Origin: Saprospiraceae bacterium | GTDB taxonomy: Bacteria; Bacteroidota; Bacteroidia; Chitinophagales; Saprospiraceae | Assembly (NCBI GenBank): GCA_020627535.1 | Contig: JAHDGU010000014.1 | Location: 1 to 64,000 of the forward strand | Length of the DNA stretch: 64,000 nt | Direction: 5' to 3' | In this document: positions 47,900 through 55,625 of the stretch, piece after piece | Layout of the letters: each line of letters starts with the position of its first letter | How positions within the stretch are numbered: the stretch's first letter is position 1 | Notes under the pieces: model-generated | Databases searched by the model: none | The model's input: the letters and a program-made list of their open reading frames with translations, nothing else | What the model was told of the DNA's origin: nothing | Made by a program: the position numbers and the translations under genes

Positions 47900-48559
47900 T
47901 CAGAGGGCGACGACTTGGTCTTGTGCAATCGCAAAGACGCGATCTGTGTCCTTGGTCTTCATCACATGCATCCCTGTGAAGTCACCAAAGGCAGGTATGT
48001 AGCTATGGCTTTCGCCAAAAATGAAGGCAGCCAGTCGAAGTGAATTTCTACTGGACGATTTGAGTCTCACTGCAGGATGCACATGACCGCTCACGATATG
48101 TCTAGACTCATCCTTGTTGATCTCAGCGGCATCATGCACCAAGAGCATGTTCCTATACTCAATCTGCGGGATGCATTCTAGCTCTAGCAGATCATAGGTC
48201 TGCTGATCGTAGAAGTCGTGATTTCCCATGACGAGCTGGCAAGGCTGTGGATTATTTTGGCGAAAGCCACCAAATCTCTCGATGGAATGATTGGCCTCAC
48301 TATGAAAAAGATCGCCAAGGAAGATGATCCGATCTGGCTCAAAGAGATCGCACAAAGCTTGCAGACGTGAAAAGTTCTTGTCTGCCACACCGAGCGGTAT
48401 GGGTACGCCATGTTTCCTGAAGTGCTGTGCCTTCCCGAGATGCAGATCACTGATCAGTAGGATCCGATCCTCTGTGAAAAAGAGTGCCTTATCAGGATGC
48501 AAAATGCAATCCGCGCCCTGCAGATGGGTCTCACATAGTCTATCAGATAGTGTGCTCAG
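47900..48559 (-). CDS. pdeM: Ligase-associated DNA damage response endonuclease PdeM
   Basis: Calcineurin-like metallophosphoesterase of the LHR-Lig repair set. Motifs are LLISDLHLGKAQHFRKHG (DxH), FLGDLFHSE (GD), MGNHDFYD (GNHD) and VSGHVHPAVR (GHxH). The conventional TTG start at 48502 gives 200 aa. It would cut off the first conserved strand, since THLQGADCILHPDKALFF is readable upstream. The open frame reaches a CTG at 48559 that overlaps the helicase stop as CTGA, giving 219 aa, which I prefer. The exact start is uncertain. Two canonical hairpin repeats in opposite orientation lie inside. Confidence 0.82.
   Translation of the reverse strand: MSTLSDRLCETHLQGADCILHPDKALFFTEDRILLISDLHLGKAQHFRKHGVPIPLGVADKNFSRLQALCDLFEPDRIIFLGDLFHSEANHSIERFGGFRQNNPQPCQLVMGNHDFYDQQTYDLLELECIPQIEYRNMLLVHDAAEINKDESRHIVSGHVHPAVRLKSSSRNSLRLAAFIFGESHSYIPAFGDFTGMHVMKTKDTDRVFAIAQDQVVAL
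48007..48020 (-). repeat. GNRA-hairpin repeat, canonical copy
   Basis: GGCTTTCGCCAAAA on the plus strand; in pdeM its coding strand gives IFGESH. Confidence 0.8.
48255..48268 (+). repeat. GNRA-hairpin repeat, canonical copy
   Basis: TTTTGGCGAAAGCC on the plus strand; in pdeM its coding strand gives GFRQN. It is inverted relative to the copy 248 bp away in the same gene. Confidence 0.8.
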
Positions 48560-50982
48560 GCCAGTGTCATTTTATCGATGCGGTCAAGTAGTCTCTCCGT
48601 ACTCATCCCTTCTCGCAGTCTATCTACCACGATCGGGAAGGACAAAGGTGTGAATCTCCGTGGTTCTGTCAAGACGATTTCTAGGTCTTGGATGCGTCTC
48701 AGTGTGTTGCGGAGGCGCTCTTCTTCTAGCTGGAAGGTGAGCAGCTCCTCGTAGCTCTGCTTGAAGAGCCAATTGTCAGGATCGTATTCTTTGAAGACAT
48801 CAAAAAGAAGCTCACTGCTGGATTGCAAGTGGCGCTCCTTCTTCTCCCTTCCGGGAAATCCGGTGAAGATCAAGCCGCTGATCTTGGCGATGTCACGGAA
48901 TCGACGTCGAGCCAATTCTGTCATGTTCATGCTGTTGAGGATGTCATCTTCGATACCGCGTGGATCAAAGAGCTCGTGATTGATGAGTTTGTCCACAGGA
49001 ATCTCCTTATCGCTCAAGAGCTCAAAACCGTAGTCATTCATCGCCATGGTGAAGCTGATCGGCATGTGCTTGGAGATACGATTGGCCAAGATGGTAGACA
49101 TGCCTTCGTGGACAGATCGCCCCTCAAATGGGTACATGAGCAGGTGATATCCTTCTTCGCTACGGATATACTCGACGAGAAACTCATTGTCAGCAGGCAA
49201 GTGAGAGATCTCCGACTGTAGGTCAAAGAGTCCTGTGATGGCACTCATTTCGGGTCCTTCTCTCAGACCTGCCGCGGACTCAAAGAGTTTTTTGCGTAAG
49301 TAGTGTGCCAGAGAGCTGCTCAGTGGTACACGGCCTCCTAGCCAGGCTGGTGTCTTACCCTTTTGCTTCCGACTCTTCTTGACGAAGGCGTCTGGTCCTC
49401 GCACAGAGACCAGCTCGAGCGGCTGCCCGGCAAACCAAAAATTGTCACCGACATTGAGCTGTGAGATGAAGAACTCTTCCACGGTACCGAGCTTCTTGCC
49501 ATTGGTATACTTGACATTGAGAGCTGCCTCACTGGTGATGGTGCCGATGGAGAGCTTGTGCCGGAGAGCCAGACGCTTGTCTCTGATGCGATAGACGCCA
49601 TCATGATAAAAAAGTCTTGCATACTCATCATATGCTTGAAGCCCTGGACCGCCATGCTGTAAAAATTCGAGTGCCCAAGTCCATTCATCCAAGTCGATCG
49701 ACTCATAGCAGAAAGTCTGTTGTATTTCCTGATAAATCTCATTTTGGCGAAAGCCACCTCCGACCGCAAGTGTATTGAGATACTGGATGAGCACATCAAA
49801 ACTGCGGATATGCGGCACCTGTGTCTCTAGCGTGCCTTGTTCGATCGCTTCGCGCAGAGCTGCTGCTTCCACCATTTCCAGAGCATGTGTCGGCAAGAAG
49901 TAGATCTTAGACACTGCGCCTGGTCTGTGGCCACTGCGACCAGCCCGCTGAATGAGCCTCGAGACGCCTTTGGGGCTTCCTACTTGCACCACAGCTTCCA
50001 CAGGACGGAAATCCACACCTAGGTCGAGTGAAGAAGTGCAGCACACTAGCTTGAGTCGACCATGATAGAGCTCCTCCTCGACCCACTCTCGCATCTCGCG
50101 ACTCATGGAGCCATGATGCATGGCCATGATGCCGGCAAGATCGGGATAGTGATGCAGGATGGCTTGGTACCAGATCTCGCACTGTCCGCGGGTGTTGGTG
50201 AAGAGAAGGATACTCTGATTGTCCTCGATGATGGGCTCGAGAAGATCGATAAGCTTGAGACCAAGATGACCCGCCCAGGGCATGTCGTCGATCTTATCGG
50301 GCATGAGTGTCTCGATGACGATCTCCTTCCGCTTGGAGGATTGGATGAGTTTCCACTGTCCTTGGCTGTAGCTTTCGCCAAAAAGCGCTTCCGTGGCTTG
50401 GTCCATGTTGCCGATGGTCGCAGAAATCCCCCAAATCCTGAGCTGCGGTGAGAGTCGCCGCATACGAGATATGGCGAGCTGTACTTGCACACCTCTCTTG
50501 GAGCCCACGAGGTCGTGCCACTCATCGACGATGATGGCTTCTAGATTGCCGAAGAGCTTGTCCTGCTTTCCACTGGCCAAGATGACATGAATGCTCTCAG
50601 GTGTGGTGACTAAGATCTGTGGTGGCGATGTGAATTGCTTCTGCCTGTCCTTGGTCGAGGTGTCGCCTGTGCGGACACCGACTTTCCAGTCGAGATCAAG
50701 CTCTTCCACCATACGTGAGCAGGAGAGACTGATCTCCTTGGAGAGTGCTCGGAGTGGTGTGATCCACAGCACTTTGAGGCCCTTGTCCAGGTCTCGCTCT
50801 AGGCCGAGACTGATAGCGCCACCAATGGCCGCATAAGTCTTTCCGCTGCCGGTCGGAGCATTGATGAGTCCGTGCTCTCCGGTGCGATAGGCCATCCAGG
50901 CCTTGCGCTGAAAGGGAAATACCTTCCAGTCACGCTCTGCGTACCAGGCTTCTAGTCGCTGTATGCCGATGGATGATTGCAA
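48556..50982 (-). CDS. Ligase-associated DNA damage response DEXH-box helicase (Lhr-like)
   Basis: An 808 aa Lhr-type superfamily 2 helicase. Motif I is INAPTGSGKTYAAIGG, motif II DEWHDLVG (DEWH), motif III WGISATIG, and motif VI QRAGRSGHRPGA. A large C-terminal part follows with winged-helix and Lhr-core strands, including NVGDNFWFAGQPLELVSVRG. The family acts with PdeM, a dedicated ATP-dependent ligase and an exonuclease in double-strand-break or damage repair. Here only pdeM accompanies it: the next gene upstream (rightward) is a toxin-antitoxin pair. Two hairpin repeats are inside (49742-49755, 50370-50383). Confidence 0.92.
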   Translation of the reverse strand: MQSSIGIQRLEAWYAERDWKVFPFQRKAWMAYRTGEHGLINAPTGSGKTYAAIGGAISLGLERDLDKGLKVLWITPLRALSKEISLSCSRMVEELDLDWKVGVRTGDTSTKDRQKQFTSPPQILVTTPESIHVILASGKQDKLFGNLEAIIVDEWHDLVGSKRGVQVQLAISRMRRLSPQLRIWGISATIGNMDQATEALFGESYSQGQWKLIQSSKRKEIVIETLMPDKIDDMPWAGHLGLKLIDLLEPIIEDNQSILLFTNTRGQCEIWYQAILHHYPDLAGIMAMHHGSMSREMREWVEEELYHGRLKLVCCTSSLDLGVDFRPVEAVVQVGSPKGVSRLIQRAGRSGHRPGAVSKIYFLPTHALEMVEAAALREAIEQGTLETQVPHIRSFDVLIQYLNTLAVGGGFRQNEIYQEIQQTFCYESIDLDEWTWALEFLQHGGPGLQAYDEYARLFYHDGVYRIRDKRLALRHKLSIGTITSEAALNVKYTNGKKLGTVEEFFISQLNVGDNFWFAGQPLELVSVRGPDAFVKKSRKQKGKTPAWLGGRVPLSSSLAHYLRKKLFESAAGLREGPEMSAITGLFDLQSEISHLPADNEFLVEYIRSEEGYHLLMYPFEGRSVHEGMSTILANRISKHMPISFTMAMNDYGFELLSDKEIPVDKLINHELFDPRGIEDDILNSMNMTELARRRFRDIAKISGLIFTGFPGREKKERHLQSSSELLFDVFKEYDPDNWLFKQSYEELLTFQLEEERLRNTLRRIQDLEIVLTEPRRFTPLSFPIVVDRLREGMSTERLLDRIDKMTLA
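49742..49755 (+). repeat. GNRA-hairpin repeat, canonical copy
   Basis: TTTTGGCGAAAGCC on the plus strand; in the helicase gene its coding strand gives GFRQN. Confidence 0.8.
50370..50383 (-). repeat. GNRA-hairpin repeat, one mismatch in stem
   Basis: AGCTTTCGCCAAAA on the plus strand, one base from canonical and losing one of three stem pairs; in the helicase gene, coding strand LFGES. Confidence 0.6.
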
Positions 50983-51110: not shown

Positions 51111-51151
51111 TACTTTAGGAGTTTCAAAATACGCAAATTGCATATTTGTGT
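51111..51151 (+). promoter_or_regulatory. Candidate higBA promoter and autoregulatory operator
   Basis: TACTTTAG (51111-51118) is a one-mismatch TAnnTTTG box, with TTTG 23 nt upstream (51084-51087). Just downstream ACGCAAAT (51131-51138) and ATTTGTGT (51144-51151) form an imperfect 8-bp dyad (7 of 8) spaced by 5 nt, a typical size for HigA-type repressor operators. Confidence 0.4.
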
Positions 51152-51163
51152 GTAAATTTGGTC

Positions 51164-51496
51164 GTGCGCATCAATGTAGTCAAGTGGGTGAATGTCTTGC
51201 AAGAAGTGGAGAAAGACAAGGCAATGCTCCGAGCATTTTTGAAGTTTTATAGTAAACTCAGGTCAGCAGAATGGAGAAGTCCAAATGATGTGTTTAAGAC
51301 ATTCAGAACTGCTGATCTTATCCAATATAAGAAGTCAAATCGCATCGTCTTTAATGTTGGCGGAAATAGATATCGCCTAATCGTGGGGTATTACTTTGGA
51401 CAAAGTTTGATCAATCTATATGTGAAGTATGTGGGCACACACAAAGACTATGACGATGTTGATGCATGTGAAGTAAATATGTTTGGAAATGGCTAA
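51164..51496 (+). CDS. higB: HigB-type toxin
   Basis: A 110 aa mRNA interferase of the HigB/RelE superfamily, which cuts ribosome-bound mRNA. The family pattern is readable: AFLKFYSKLRSAEWRSPNDV, then a long helix and RIVFNVGGNRYRLIVGYYFG, and the closing LYVKYVGTHKDYDDVD. GTG 51164 is chosen over the upstream TTG because the conserved part starts there. The stop overlaps the higA start by 14 nt, the usual toxin-first order. The neighbourhood is accessory and lies right behind a repair helicase. Confidence 0.85.
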   Translation: MRINVVKWVNVLQEVEKDKAMLRAFLKFYSKLRSAEWRSPNDVFKTFRTADLIQYKKSNRIVFNVGGNRYRLIVGYYFGQSLINLYVKYVGTHKDYDDVDACEVNMFGNG

Positions 51497-51878
51497 GTCA
51501 ATGTACACAATTATCAGAGATCAAAAACAGTATGATGACTACTGTGACGCGCTAGAGCGCTTGACCAGCTCTGATCAATCTGATAAGCAAGATGAGATTG
51601 AGCTACTATCACTTCTCATAGGTAACTATAATGAGAGAGCCATGGAAAAATATCAGTTTTCTATGGATCCTGTAGAGTTGCTTAAAGACCTACTTGAGGA
51701 GAATCAATTGACTCAAATTGCTTTGGCGAAATCCATCAATACATCTCCGCAGCTCATTAATGATGTGCTGAAATATAGACGGGAGATCACAAAAAAATTG
51801 TCATTAAAGCTAGCCCAAGAATTTGGTGTTTCTCATCTGGCATTTCTGCAGCCGTACAATCTGAAGAAGGCAGGGTGA
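51483..51878 (+). CDS. higA: HigA-type antitoxin
   Basis: A 131 aa antitoxin with a HigB-binding N-terminus (ERLTSSDQSDKQDEIELLSL) and an XRE-type helix-turn-helix at about 78-110 (LTQIALAKSINTSPQLINDV). It overlaps higB and would bind the dyad upstream. Start is uncertain between ATG 51483, 51489 and 51501; the overlap favours an early one. Confidence 0.85.
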   Translation: MEMAKSMYTIIRDQKQYDDYCDALERLTSSDQSDKQDEIELLSLLIGNYNERAMEKYQFSMDPVELLKDLLEENQLTQIALAKSINTSPQLINDVLKYRREITKKLSLKLAQEFGVSHLAFLQPYNLKKAG

Positions 51879-52743: not shown

Positions 52744-53850
52744 TCAAACCTTCACAATAATATCTTTCCGATACAAGATATACGCACATATCCAAACCGA
52801 AGCCACGACAGATAAAGCAAACAGCAGGCTTCCAAGATAATTTCCACAAGCACTCTGAAAGACATTGGCATAAAGCCAGGCATACAGACTGCTCTCTTCG
52901 ATGTGGATGACGTACAGCATGATCTTGGCAAAGAGTATGGACAGAACATAGCTGATCAGCGCATTTCTGCCAAATACCTTGAATGGAAATGACCATGAGC
53001 CGACAGACTTCACATCAGCGATCCACATGATCAGCGACCAGATGATCAGTAAATATCCCGAGGTATAAAGAACATAGCTTGGCGTCCAAAGTGGCTTGTT
53101 GATCGGGACTACGTGACTGAGTATCCAAGCAGTGAAAATGGATACTACACCCGCCATCGCAATTCTGAAACAAAGCTTGGCGTCTATCTTCTTCGACAAT
53201 ACAAACTTGGATGCAAGATAGCCGAGGATCACTTGGGCTCCAGAGCTGAGAGTGCCAAGCAGTCCTTCAGGATCAAACTTGATCCCAAATCCACCGTACA
53301 TATGCGGCTCACCAACTAGCCAGCGATCAATGGACGTGCCTACATTGCCCTCAAGGCTATAGACGCTCCAGTCTCCACCAAGAGAATGATCTCCAAAGCT
53401 GTAAAGAATGCAATAGTGAGATATCATAAGCAATACAGCAGAGATGGCTAGCCAAGTCGTCTTCCTGATCAGCGTGATCACGAGACCAGCAAGTAAAAAA
53501 GCACAGGCAATCCTCTGTAGTACGCCGAATATCCGAAGCTCTTCAATGCTGCGACCGACAAATGGAAACCAATTGAGAAGTAGACCAATGAGAAAAATTA
53601 AAGATGCCCTCTTTAGAATTTTGATGATAGCGCCTCGTGTATTCGTGACCTTGTGTAGGGAAAAGTACATCGACATGCCCATCACAAATATGAAGGATGG
53701 AAAGACCATATCGGTTGGTGTACATCCGTGCCACTTGGCATGAAGTAGTGGTGCATAGACATAGCTCCACGAGCCAGGAGTATTGACCATAATCATCATG
53801 GCCACCGTAAGTCCTCTGAGGATATCTATGGATTGGTTTCTTGATTGCAT
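52744..53850 (-). CDS. HGSNAT-type membrane acyltransferase (DUF5009-like)
   Basis: A 368 aa polytopic inner-membrane protein similar to heparan-alpha-glucosaminide N-acetyltransferase. The opening NQSIDILRGLTVAMMIMVNT and the AKWHGCTPTDMVFPSFIFVM block, with the catalytic His in KWHG, are typical. About ten hydrophobic segments follow. It would transfer acetyl from cytosolic acetyl-CoA to a sugar on the outer face. The start codon lies only 3 bp from the left terminal inverted repeat of the 312-bp element, so its promoter may be supplied by that element. Confidence 0.88.
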   Translation of the reverse strand: MQSRNQSIDILRGLTVAMMIMVNTPGSWSYVYAPLLHAKWHGCTPTDMVFPSFIFVMGMSMYFSLHKVTNTRGAIIKILKRASLIFLIGLLLNWFPFVGRSIEELRIFGVLQRIACAFLLAGLVITLIRKTTWLAISAVLLMISHYCILYSFGDHSLGGDWSVYSLEGNVGTSIDRWLVGEPHMYGGFGIKFDPEGLLGTLSSGAQVILGYLASKFVLSKKIDAKLCFRIAMAGVVSIFTAWILSHVVPINKPLWTPSYVLYTSGYLLIIWSLIMWIADVKSVGSWSFPFKVFGRNALISYVLSILFAKIMLYVIHIEESSLYAWLYANVFQSACGNYLGSLLFALSVVASVWICAYILYRKDIIVKV

Positions 53851-53853
53851 GAG

Positions 53854-54165
53854 TTCAACCCATTTCGTGCATTAGGAATTTTTTGAATACTCTGCCTGGC
53901 AGATAAGCATCTGATATTGAATGACTTGTCTGGATGAAGATGACATTTTGATTCGTAACATTTACTTTCAGTGAAAAATCATTTTCAACACGAATAATCT
54001 TCCAGAATATATGCACCTGTCGGGTCTTCGTGTATAGCGTATTTCTGCTTCATAATCAGGCACTTATCCTCCTCGCCTTGTCTCGACATGCCTCGTCCGC
54101 TAAGCACCCGATTCTTTTGCATAAATCCACTATCCATCGAAGCCTAATGCACGAATTGGGTTCAA
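53854..54165. mobile_element. 312-bp element with 23-bp terminal inverted repeats (MITE-like)
   Basis: The left arm (53854-53876) and the complement of the right arm (54143-54165) agree at 21 of 23 positions, both ending in the shared GTGCATTAGG. The interior is AT-rich with no transposase and one possible 45-codon frame. No convincing target duplication is visible (flanks read GAG and GCT). It fills most of the 331-nt spacer between the acyltransferase and the NTF2-fold lipoprotein genes, ending 3 nt from the start codon of one and 16 nt from the stop codon of the other. Confidence 0.55.
53985..54122 (-). CDS. Possible 45 aa ORF inside the inverted-repeat element
   Basis: An open frame from ATG (54122-54120) to TGA (53987-53985) gives a 45 aa peptide that includes GMSRQGEEDKCLIMKQKYA. 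No family is recognised and no ribosome-binding site was seen. It may be a remnant or a chance frame. Confidence 0.2.
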   Translation of the reverse strand: MQKNRVLSGRGMSRQGEEDKCLIMKQKYAIHEDPTGAYILEDYSC

Positions 54166-54181
54166 GCTGACTCTAATGTAG

Positions 54182-54658
54182 TCATTCTTTATTCACCCAA
54201 GTAGAATGCATCATTTTCAATCGCCAGCCTTTCTCTGTTTTCACAGCGAGCGCACTTTCAAGCCAATTGCCCTCAAAAAGCAAACTGTCATTTCTGATAA
54301 AGTCTGCATGATTGTGGTAGGCGAGTTGTATAGATTCTCCATACTTATCTACTGAGATATAGTCCATTTTGTTAATCCTGTCAGGACGGTTTTGCCGAGA
54401 CATTTGATCTCTCATAAATTTTTTAATTCGAGCATTATCCCAGACTTCGCCATTTTCTAGGATGACGAAGTCTTGCGTATGATAGTCAAGGAGCCTTGTG
54501 GAGTCTCTTGCTGACCATATGTCATCAAATACACCTTGGACCAGGTCTTTGGCGATTTGGATTTCAGCGGGTGTTATACTTTGCTCTTTAGGGTTTTGAT
54601 TTTTTTGACAACTGAGTAATAGTACAATTGCCGTGATGACGCAGATTCTTTTTGACAT
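54182..54658 (-). CDS. NTF2-fold (SnoaL/DUF4440-like) lipoprotein
   Basis: A 158 aa predicted lipoprotein, lipobox LLSC (Cys17). After a short linker the domain shows the NTF2-like helix-strand pattern DLVQGVFDDIWSARDSTRLL, then YHTQDFVILENGEVW and the final strand WRLKMMHSTW. Such domains bind small ligands or act as scaffolds; there is no catalytic signature. Next to a second NTF2 gene, with 70 nt between. Confidence 0.82.
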   Translation of the reverse strand: MSKRICVITAIVLLLSCQKNQNPKEQSITPAEIQIAKDLVQGVFDDIWSARDSTRLLDYHTQDFVILENGEVWDNARIKKFMRDQMSRQNRPDRINKMDYISVDKYGESIQLAYHNHADFIRNDSLLFEGNWLESALAVKTEKGWRLKMMHSTWVNKE

Positions 54659-54728
54659 AAATTATCGATGCTTTTCCTTCTGATATTAAAGGAATGAAGA
54701 AGATATAATCAGAAAACAACTTAGAATA

Positions 54729-55625
54729 CTAGTTCCTCCTGATCGGATCCAATATCCTAGGCTTATCCTCTTGAGGTAATTGTTTTCTCAGTTCGAGATA
54801 GTCTTTGACCAGATCATTGGGTACAAGAATGGCAAGATTGTAGTGGGCTAGTGACCATGTGTCATCACTATTTCTCACGAGGACACCTGAGCCTCGACAT
54901 TCGCCCATCCACGTGTCAAGCACTTCGTCAAACCATGCCGTGTTTTGATCATCAGAAAAATAGAACTCTCTCTCCCTTGCCTTGAAAGACCAAGCTGACT
55001 CTTTTTCAAAATGCTCGGCAAAGAGACTGGCAATTTCATGTGTGTACCATTTTTCTGTGGCGTCAGTACCTAGAAATATACCGTCAGCCGTCATCGATCC
55101 GAAGTACTTATCTTCATCGGCCACAGCTGCGGCTTGATGCCATTGATCCATGAATTGCTGCAGATCAGCTTCTAGACTGGCGTACTCACAGCTCTTTTTC
55201 CTTGTATCTACGAGATGAATGATCTTCCATCCATCCGTGGACTTTCCAAGGGTGATATTGTTGGATCCACAGTGTGAAATCTGGCCATTGAGGTAGAAGG
55301 TGTAGGGTAACCAAGCCTGAGCTAGCCGATCATCTACATTGATCTCATACTTCCAGATTTTCTCAACTTGATTTCCTGGTGTCAATCGCTGTATACCTTG
55401 AGCAAGGAGCTTGGCGTCGCGATGCTCCGATATGCCACCAGGAATACGTTCGTCTAGCGACACGATCTGGGCTGTTGGATGCATCGTAGCAAGCATCATA
55501 CTCGAGTCGGCCATGTGGATGGCATAGAAGAAGTCGTGAAGGAGCGACTTGATTTGTTGTTCTTCTGTCTGGGCAGATATGACACCTGCTGATAGAAATG
55601 CGAAAGCAAAGAATAGATGCTTCAT
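54729..55625 (-). CDS. Exported protein with two NTF2-like domains
   Basis: A 298 aa protein, signal peptide about 1-18 ending SAQ. Two NTF2-fold units follow, at about 20-145 (FFYAIHMADSSMMLATMHPT) and about 150-275 (LQQFMDQWHQAAAVADEDKY, with a SnoaL-like third strand around GTDATEKW). The second matches the SnoaL_3 type. Function unknown; a role in ligand binding in the periplasm is possible. Its start codon lies 11 nt from the divergent flippase GTG. Confidence 0.8.
   Translation of the reverse strand: MKHLFFAFAFLSAGVISAQTEEQQIKSLLHDFFYAIHMADSSMMLATMHPTAQIVSLDERIPGGISEHRDAKLLAQGIQRLTPGNQVEKIWKYEINVDDRLAQAWLPYTFYLNGQISHCGSNNITLGKSTDGWKIIHLVDTRKKSCEYASLEADLQQFMDQWHQAAAVADEDKYFGSMTADGIFLGTDATEKWYTHEIASLFAEHFEKESAWSFKAREREFYFSDDQNTAWFDEVLDTWMGECRGSGVLVRNSDDTWSLAHYNLAILVPNDLVKDYLELRKQLPQEDKPRILDPIRRN

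Follow-up and report, generated by a model that had tools for sequence, protein, structure and literature searches.

Among the structured MITEs of bacteria, the ERIC/IRU repeats of enterobacteria are described as small and intergenic, with terminal inverted repeats (TIRs), a target-site duplication (TSD) and a long RNA hairpin able to alter mRNA stability, ERIC itself being 127 bp long with 7-bp TIRs and a TA dinucleotide at its termini (PMC2229807). The same article describes Correia/NEMIS and RUP as MITEs that form long hairpins once transcribed, with RNase III cutting NEMIS RNA, and gives as the proposed mover of RUP the transposase of IS630-Spn1, which has the same ends (PMC2229807). In the Bacillus cereus group, bcr1 to bcr3 are reported to be dispersed, intergenic, MITE-like repeats that often lie within transcripts (PMC3446304), and a conserved stem-loop is described for bcr1 (PMC2267715). 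The function of the fold has rarely been settled in structured bacterial MITEs such as ERIC, NEMIS and RUP. A 5-bp duplication accompanies bcr1, and a 5-bp AT-rich one accompanies the insertion sequence ISAba11; we are not aware that bcr1 has been described with exchanged ends or from more than one family.

The element described here lies in a 64,000-nt stretch of the genome of a Saprospiraceae bacterium (contig JAHDGU010000014.1, positions 1 to 64,000), which we call the window. We consider it highly probable that this is a mobile MITE with TIRs and a 5-bp duplication, in which a hairpin that covaries on one strand is a working part, likely as RNA. It works like the structured MITEs ERIC, NEMIS, RUP and bcr1, and has the MITE characters that we tested for, with the exception of a partner enzyme. 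Like bcr1 to bcr3 it is dispersed and MITE-like, and like bcr1 structured, as far as the published descriptions go; the host of those repeats belongs to the Bacillota. It is not ERIC, because it has an 18-bp TIR, CCC/GGG ends and a 5-bp TSD. Correia/NEMIS and RUP, as their summary description has it, possess TA termini, other TIRs and, in the case of RUP, a proposed parent IS, whereas the ends here are CCC...GGG, the duplication is 5 bp long and a parent was not found. The Bacteroidota have MITEs of their own in MITECca01 (Cardinium) and BrickBuilt (Porphyromonas gingivalis) (PMC9769881, PMC4596501). The ends of the former are said to resemble IS982-family IS (PMC9769881), while the latter carries tandem repeats of 23 nt and has TIRs that are close to those of ISPg elements (PMC4596501), and the passages that describe the two contain neither the present TIR nor a genus-spanning conserved hairpin (PMC9769881, PMC4596501). 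For ISAba11 the duplication given is ATTTA (PMC7885321).

Titles and the starts of abstracts in the open-access literature named no such element, and sequence words in full text led to unrelated papers. As far as these searches go, what is new within the open-access literature searched is the element family, its reach over genera with compensatory change, its strand polarity and the changing of its ends around a fixed hairpin. That one hairpin can be traced through 12 genera and two other families, with changes on both sides of most pairs, a clear strand polarity and varying TIRs, makes the purpose of a MITE RNA directly testable, and, while the covariance models R1 and R2 can annotate the family, the missing mobilizing enzyme becomes a defined target.

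Limits and Parts of the Element

The original prediction had placed near-perfect 23-bp inverted repeats at 53854-53876 and 54143-54165. These arms are present, with 21 of 23 positions complementary and no third match to their pattern within the window at up to three mismatches (shuffle expectation 0), but the true TIR is only 18 bp long. The element proper is 302 bp, from 53859 to 54160, and begins with the left TIR, CCCATTTCGTGCATTAGG, on the plus strand at 53859-53876 and ends with the right TIR, CCCAATTCGTGCATTAGG on the minus strand, at 54143-54160; both are defined by the pairing of the arms (17 of 18 positions) and by matches to the TIR pattern. The outer 5 bp on either side, 53854-53858 and 54161-54165, both read TTCAA and form a direct repeat, the left and right copies of a target-site duplication whose 5-bp length was set by the 30-copy test described below. 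This duplication had seemed to be inverted because TTCAA is nearly palindromic.

Inside the left TIR, the left half of the element (53877-54023) diverges fast and is missing from the compact elements of other genera. On the minus strand, 54024-54144 is a conserved 121-nt hairpin. Its first two bases (54143-54144) are shared with the right TIR, and the window copy forms 39 of the 41 model pairs. An AT-rich interior had been claimed, and this is true of the left half (GC 0.34) but not of the hairpin half (GC 0.47), the GC of the whole element being 0.41 vs 0.467 for the window. ORFs of 60 aa or more are absent from the interior. The other reading that had been offered, a regulatory or transcript-processing hairpin, was right in that a hairpin exists; it is, however, internal and 121 nt long, and is part of a mobile element rather than of this locus.

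Dispersed Copies and Target Duplication

The genome that contains the window (G000) comprises 4.09 Mb in 25 contigs, and a search of the whole of it with the element gave 28 main places plus end fragments and remnants. Further copies therefore exist, and a pair unique in the genome and conserved at one locus is not what appeared. At up to three mismatches, the 18-bp TIR pattern had 62 matches in this genome vs 0 for the reversed control, and there are 26 facing TIR pairs, spaced 100-304 bp. Of the 27 copies in G000 that have both TIRs, 23 are 293-304 bp long. Two internally shortened copies (L085 and L086) measure 117 and 100 bp, two tandem arrays (C19 and C4) have between their copies a pentamer common to both neighbors, and on C20 one pentamer separates a complete copy from a solitary additional TIR. 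A second genome of the same genus, G001, also carries the element family; in one of its copies (L158:388-905) the hairpin region has GC-rich short repeats and a run of N.

The duplication was assessed at assumed lengths of 2 to 12 bp in the 30 copies that retain both TIRs, of which G000 supplied 27 and G001 3 (L013, L025 and L026, where a second TIR is not recognizable, were left out), with pentamers shared inside arrays counted for both copies. The 5-bp flanks had a mean identity of 0.84 vs 0.66 for shuffled pairings (z 8.3) and were identical in 14 of the 30, and in the same copies lengths of 2-4 and 6-12 showed no excess identity. The left pentamer fits YTNAR in 21 of 30 copies. The most telling duplications are ATGAA/ATGAA (L007), CTAAG/CTAAG (L021) and TAGTA/TAGTA (L093), and, since ATGAA and TAGTA are off the pattern, these are true duplications and not extensions of the TIR. 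The comparison establishes that insertion came by a 5-bp staggered event. The original prediction of a non-autonomous mobile element (MITE) is thus borne out by the 28 places, the 26 TIR pairs and the 5-bp target duplication. The proposed check of empty sites gave nothing to compare, in that an alignable empty site was not found between G001 loci and G000; of the G001 loci compared, L160 alone aligned over at least 250 bases with the G000 sequence examined, and its intergenic parts were unalignable.

Neighboring Genes and Orientation

The positions first reported for the two ends are correct: 3 bp separate the TSD from the start codon (ATG, 53850) of an HGSNAT_cat gene (52744-53850), and the right end is 16 bp from a stop codon whose last base is 54182, the flanking gene on that side being DUF4440-like (54182-54658, just under the Pfam cut-off). 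Upstream of the element, 54182-55625 holds two adjacent SnoaL/DUF4440-type genes, of which the shorter is the one just below the cut-off. The two flanking genes are co-directional and the hairpin strand in the window is sense relative to both.

Is the element, then, a regulatory element or operator of the HGSNAT-like or the DUF4440-like gene? Its sense position between two co-directional genes, near a stop and a start codon, is what such a role would lead one to expect, yet the same element is found next to numerous other genes and in either orientation, and target duplications mark the copies taken together. We find this explanation of the element barely credible, and as an account of its origin it is refuted by the dispersed copies, their two orientations and the duplications; the element may have a secondary effect on these two genes.

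The gene context of the 30 copies was taken from a heuristic, ORF-based annotation. No copy falls within a larger gene, three overlap ORFs that we judged spurious (93-135 aa), and 29 are bordered on one or both sides by a gene's 3' end. Of the 18 copies flanked by co-directional genes, 7 have the hairpin strand in sense and 11 in antisense, which is no clear bias; a 19th copy, L085, lacks the hairpin and was not counted. Selection on the hairpin within the transcripts of neighbors leaves no sign in these orientation counts. Terminators adjoin copies at 3 of 60 flanks vs 0.2 expected from approximate shuffles, an excess made up of few cases. Because there is no clear preference of orientation, a job for the element, be it movement, maintenance or protection, is likelier than one for the neighboring gene, and we consider a role of the hairpin for the element itself the likeliest, with about an even chance of being correct.

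A Hairpin with One Polarity

The right half of the element was more conserved than the left in 273 of the 276 pairs formed by 24 aligned copies (mean identity 0.839 vs 0.562). The three exceptions, in which the right half is the more divergent, are close copy pairs (the pair at L021 and two pairs among L005, L007 and L011), and their pattern suggests that copies have exchanged right halves. Read on the minus strand, the right half forms one long hairpin. The 121 nt of the window copy have a predicted energy of -39.8 kcal/mol (z -5.85), with none of 200 shuffles as stable, and its opposite strand one of -21.4 (z -1.76), with 11 of 200 as stable. In a first covariation set of 33 sequences, 32 of them distinct (24 from G000, 1 from G001 and 8 from G294), 93.4% of the cells in 41 pairs were paired and both sides had changed at 15 pairs; none of 500 shuffles equaled this on any of five measures, and slid versions reached at most 48.8%.

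A transition in a stem leaves a G-U wobble on one strand and an A-C mispair on the opposite strand. The wobble cells numbered 159 G-U vs 16 A-C on the minus strand, a skew of cells and not of events (by pairs, any G-U occurs at 23 of 41 and any A-C at 13 of 41), and this skew indicates that selection acts on the minus strand. The window copy scored 109.0 bits against a covariance model vs 40.6 on the other strand. In the G000 sequence examined, R2 found 26 hairpins of at least 87 bits and two weaker ones; it also matched the opposite strand of 25 of the 26, always with a lower score. Rfam had no match to the element at gathering level for the window copy and nine other loci (ten loci or stretches in all); among five loci, RF03344 overlapped one hairpin at chance level (22.8 bits vs a cut-off of 70, E 0.87).

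These strand differences bear on two accounts of the hairpin as DNA. According to the first, the element is a plain MITE whose hairpin acts only as DNA, as extended transposase sites or a cruciform, and is kept as defective copies are immobile, with RNA not involved. Binding to duplex or extrusion of a cruciform would use both strands equally, yet G-U far exceeds A-C and the covariance models favor one strand strongly. The second account, in which the hairpin is single-stranded DNA on one replication strand in a transposition like that of IS200/IS605, leads one to expect polarity of one strand, as RNA would. Elements of the IS200/IS605 type are not known to have target duplications or TIRs, however, and both are present here, and the hairpin strand agreed with local GC skew at only 12 of 20 places, which indicates no replication-strand bias in what is a weak test (20-kb stretches; a 21st, bearing two opposite copies, was left out). 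We regard the second account as decidedly improbable. The lack of a clear orientation bias together with the lack of replication-strand bias argues mildly against both a role in the mRNA of neighbors and a replication-strand DNA signal. The ends of Tn3- or Tn7-type elements and integron attC sites were also considered, along with IS200/IS605, and were rejected because this element has CCC...GGG ends, a TSD and TIRs.

Spread over Genera and Changing Ends

With R1, strict filters and 8 candidates per genome, which make the counts a lower bound, the hairpin was found in at least 18 of 398 genomes of the family Saprospiraceae and 12 of its 112 genera; E-values are rough, the weakest being near E 7e-4. 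R2, built on 23 rows of which one was an opposite-strand match, was run on 395 genomes of the phylum and picked out the hairpin in 4, namely our own and three from two other families of the same class. The TIR alone, at up to two mismatches, occurs in 71 of 398 genomes of the family, but is a poor marker because most of these have single matches and the reversed control also matches many genomes.

We delimited the ends of the element at 17 loci of other genera, with a score that includes the duplication and hence favors finding one. At 13 of the 17 the element is 156-176 bp long, with little beyond hairpin and TIR; at least 4 of 5 bases are duplicated at 11, and 8 to 19 of 20 TIR positions match. 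The strand picked by the model folds more stably at all 17 places. A second covariation set, to which 19 loci contribute 21 rows aligned with R1, comes nearly all from other genera and is largely independent of the first. It includes two G294 rows (the 482-bp variant, one of them on the opposite strand) and one G162 row, and leaves out the matching loci L171, L174, L178, L187, L094, L095, L097 and L152 as well as the loci of R1's own genomes. In this set 91.1% of cells were paired, both sides had changed at 34 of 41 pairs and none of 500 shuffles was as good; since the alignment was fitted to the model, the fair comparison is with slid controls (at most 42.7%) and shuffles (70.0%). Ten matches from the other families were folded together with their flanks, and in 6 of them the predicted strand was more stable than its complement; one locus there (L264) has TTTAA on both sides and a TIR nearly that of G394.

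Around the kept core of the hairpin the ends vary, the TIR being CCCGGATTATGCAATAGG in G394, CCCAGATTTTTCAGTTGAG in G233 and CCTAAAATTTAAAATG in G170. Conversely, G138 has elements of about 175 bp (L120, L121, L123, L124, L125 and L147) that bear 5-bp duplications and an almost identical TIR around an interior that is different, though also hairpin-like; R1 had no match at L120 and L121 of G138, nor at one locus of a second, 168-177-bp family in G162. The same TIR with another inside, and the same hairpin with other ends, make it look as if TIR and hairpin are separable in both directions. Size variants occur as well: in G294, L104:5598-6079 and L109:5580-6061 are 482-bp variants about 181 bases longer than the 301-bp copies, the difference lying within the hairpin half, and a variant of this type in L129 has short open frames of 42-90 aa. 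On contig 309 of G165 (L166), a TTAGGG-like junction lies between tandem copies spaced about 315 bp from each other.

The DNA-only account of the hairpin has support in these other genera, where the compact elements are near-perfect hairpins from end to end, continuous with their TIRs; conservation of a working part would, moreover, follow the source lineage, as observed. Against it, the core is kept while the sequence of the TIR changes, and taking this together with the strand evidence we think the account unlikely. A bolder idea is that the elements are RNA-dependent TIR transposons, a widespread lineage of small elements of Bacteroidia that is defined by its RNA hairpin and not by its ends, the hairpin being trans-acting or guide-like in transposition and re-equipped with different TIRs in different genera; this we hold to be quite improbable.

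Comparison of sequences thus demonstrates dispersed copies with an 18-bp TIR, a 5-bp duplication mostly of the form YTNAR and a compensated hairpin of one polarity. As for the hairpin as a working part that is likely RNA, it probably serves a function for the element, because its paired shape has been kept on one strand across related bacteria. It would be that working part, and not a relic, as a single strand of fixed polarity, and RNA is most likely the form in which selection sees this strand. Such RNA would come from transcription of the element, often perhaps by read-through from an adjacent gene.

The Presumed Mobilizing Enzyme

How does the element move? We infer that it depends on a DDE-type transposase acting in trans, the product of another element that is absent from or unrecognized in the assembly; this enzyme would bind the TIRs, move the element and cut the target with a 5-bp stagger. 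A transposase with the same terminal repeats, which the original prediction had suggested looking for, was not found in the draft assemblies, which may lack multi-copy IS. In G000 no facing TIR pairs are more than 304 bp apart other than in the two tandem arrays, and 40 stretches at contig ends (not every end) had no TIR at up to three mismatches. DDE_Tnp_1 (PF01609) was present in 4 of 7 genomes and DDE_Tnp_1_4 (PF13701), below cut-off, in 1 of 7; none of 11 loci with these domains had a TIR at up to four mismatches.

At the start of contig 1 of G000 (L213:1-514) there is a transposase fragment (PF13751), presumably IS1182-like, that shares short stretches with other contig ends and may come from a multi-copy IS that the assembly failed to retain. 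Matches to it occur in 6 of 17 genomes, our own included. We rejected this fragment as the partner, in that its visible right end is unlike the TIR and its distribution does not track the element. Among the matches listed, other genomes show at least two longer facing TIR pairs, in G138 and G321, while G528, G608 and G718 have no facing TIR pair 0.3 to 6 kb apart. The 1722-bp interval in G138 (L119) was also rejected, its 319-aa ORF reading by eye like a secreted protein and not a transposase. The G321 pair, on contig 192 and about 3.4 kb apart, consists of two 3-mismatch matches at chance level, G321 having 13 TIR matches vs 4 for the reversed control.

Other Observations

Elsewhere in the window, a gene for a HigB-like toxin (PF09907) and, after it, one for a helix-turn-helix protein (PF01381) at 51146-51878 likely form a toxin-antitoxin pair, and 48556-50982 encodes a large Lhr-type helicase (PF19306, PF08494). 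In G001, a copy of the element (L093:3465-3571) ends 24 bases before a gene for a small SRP RNA of the Bacteroidales type.
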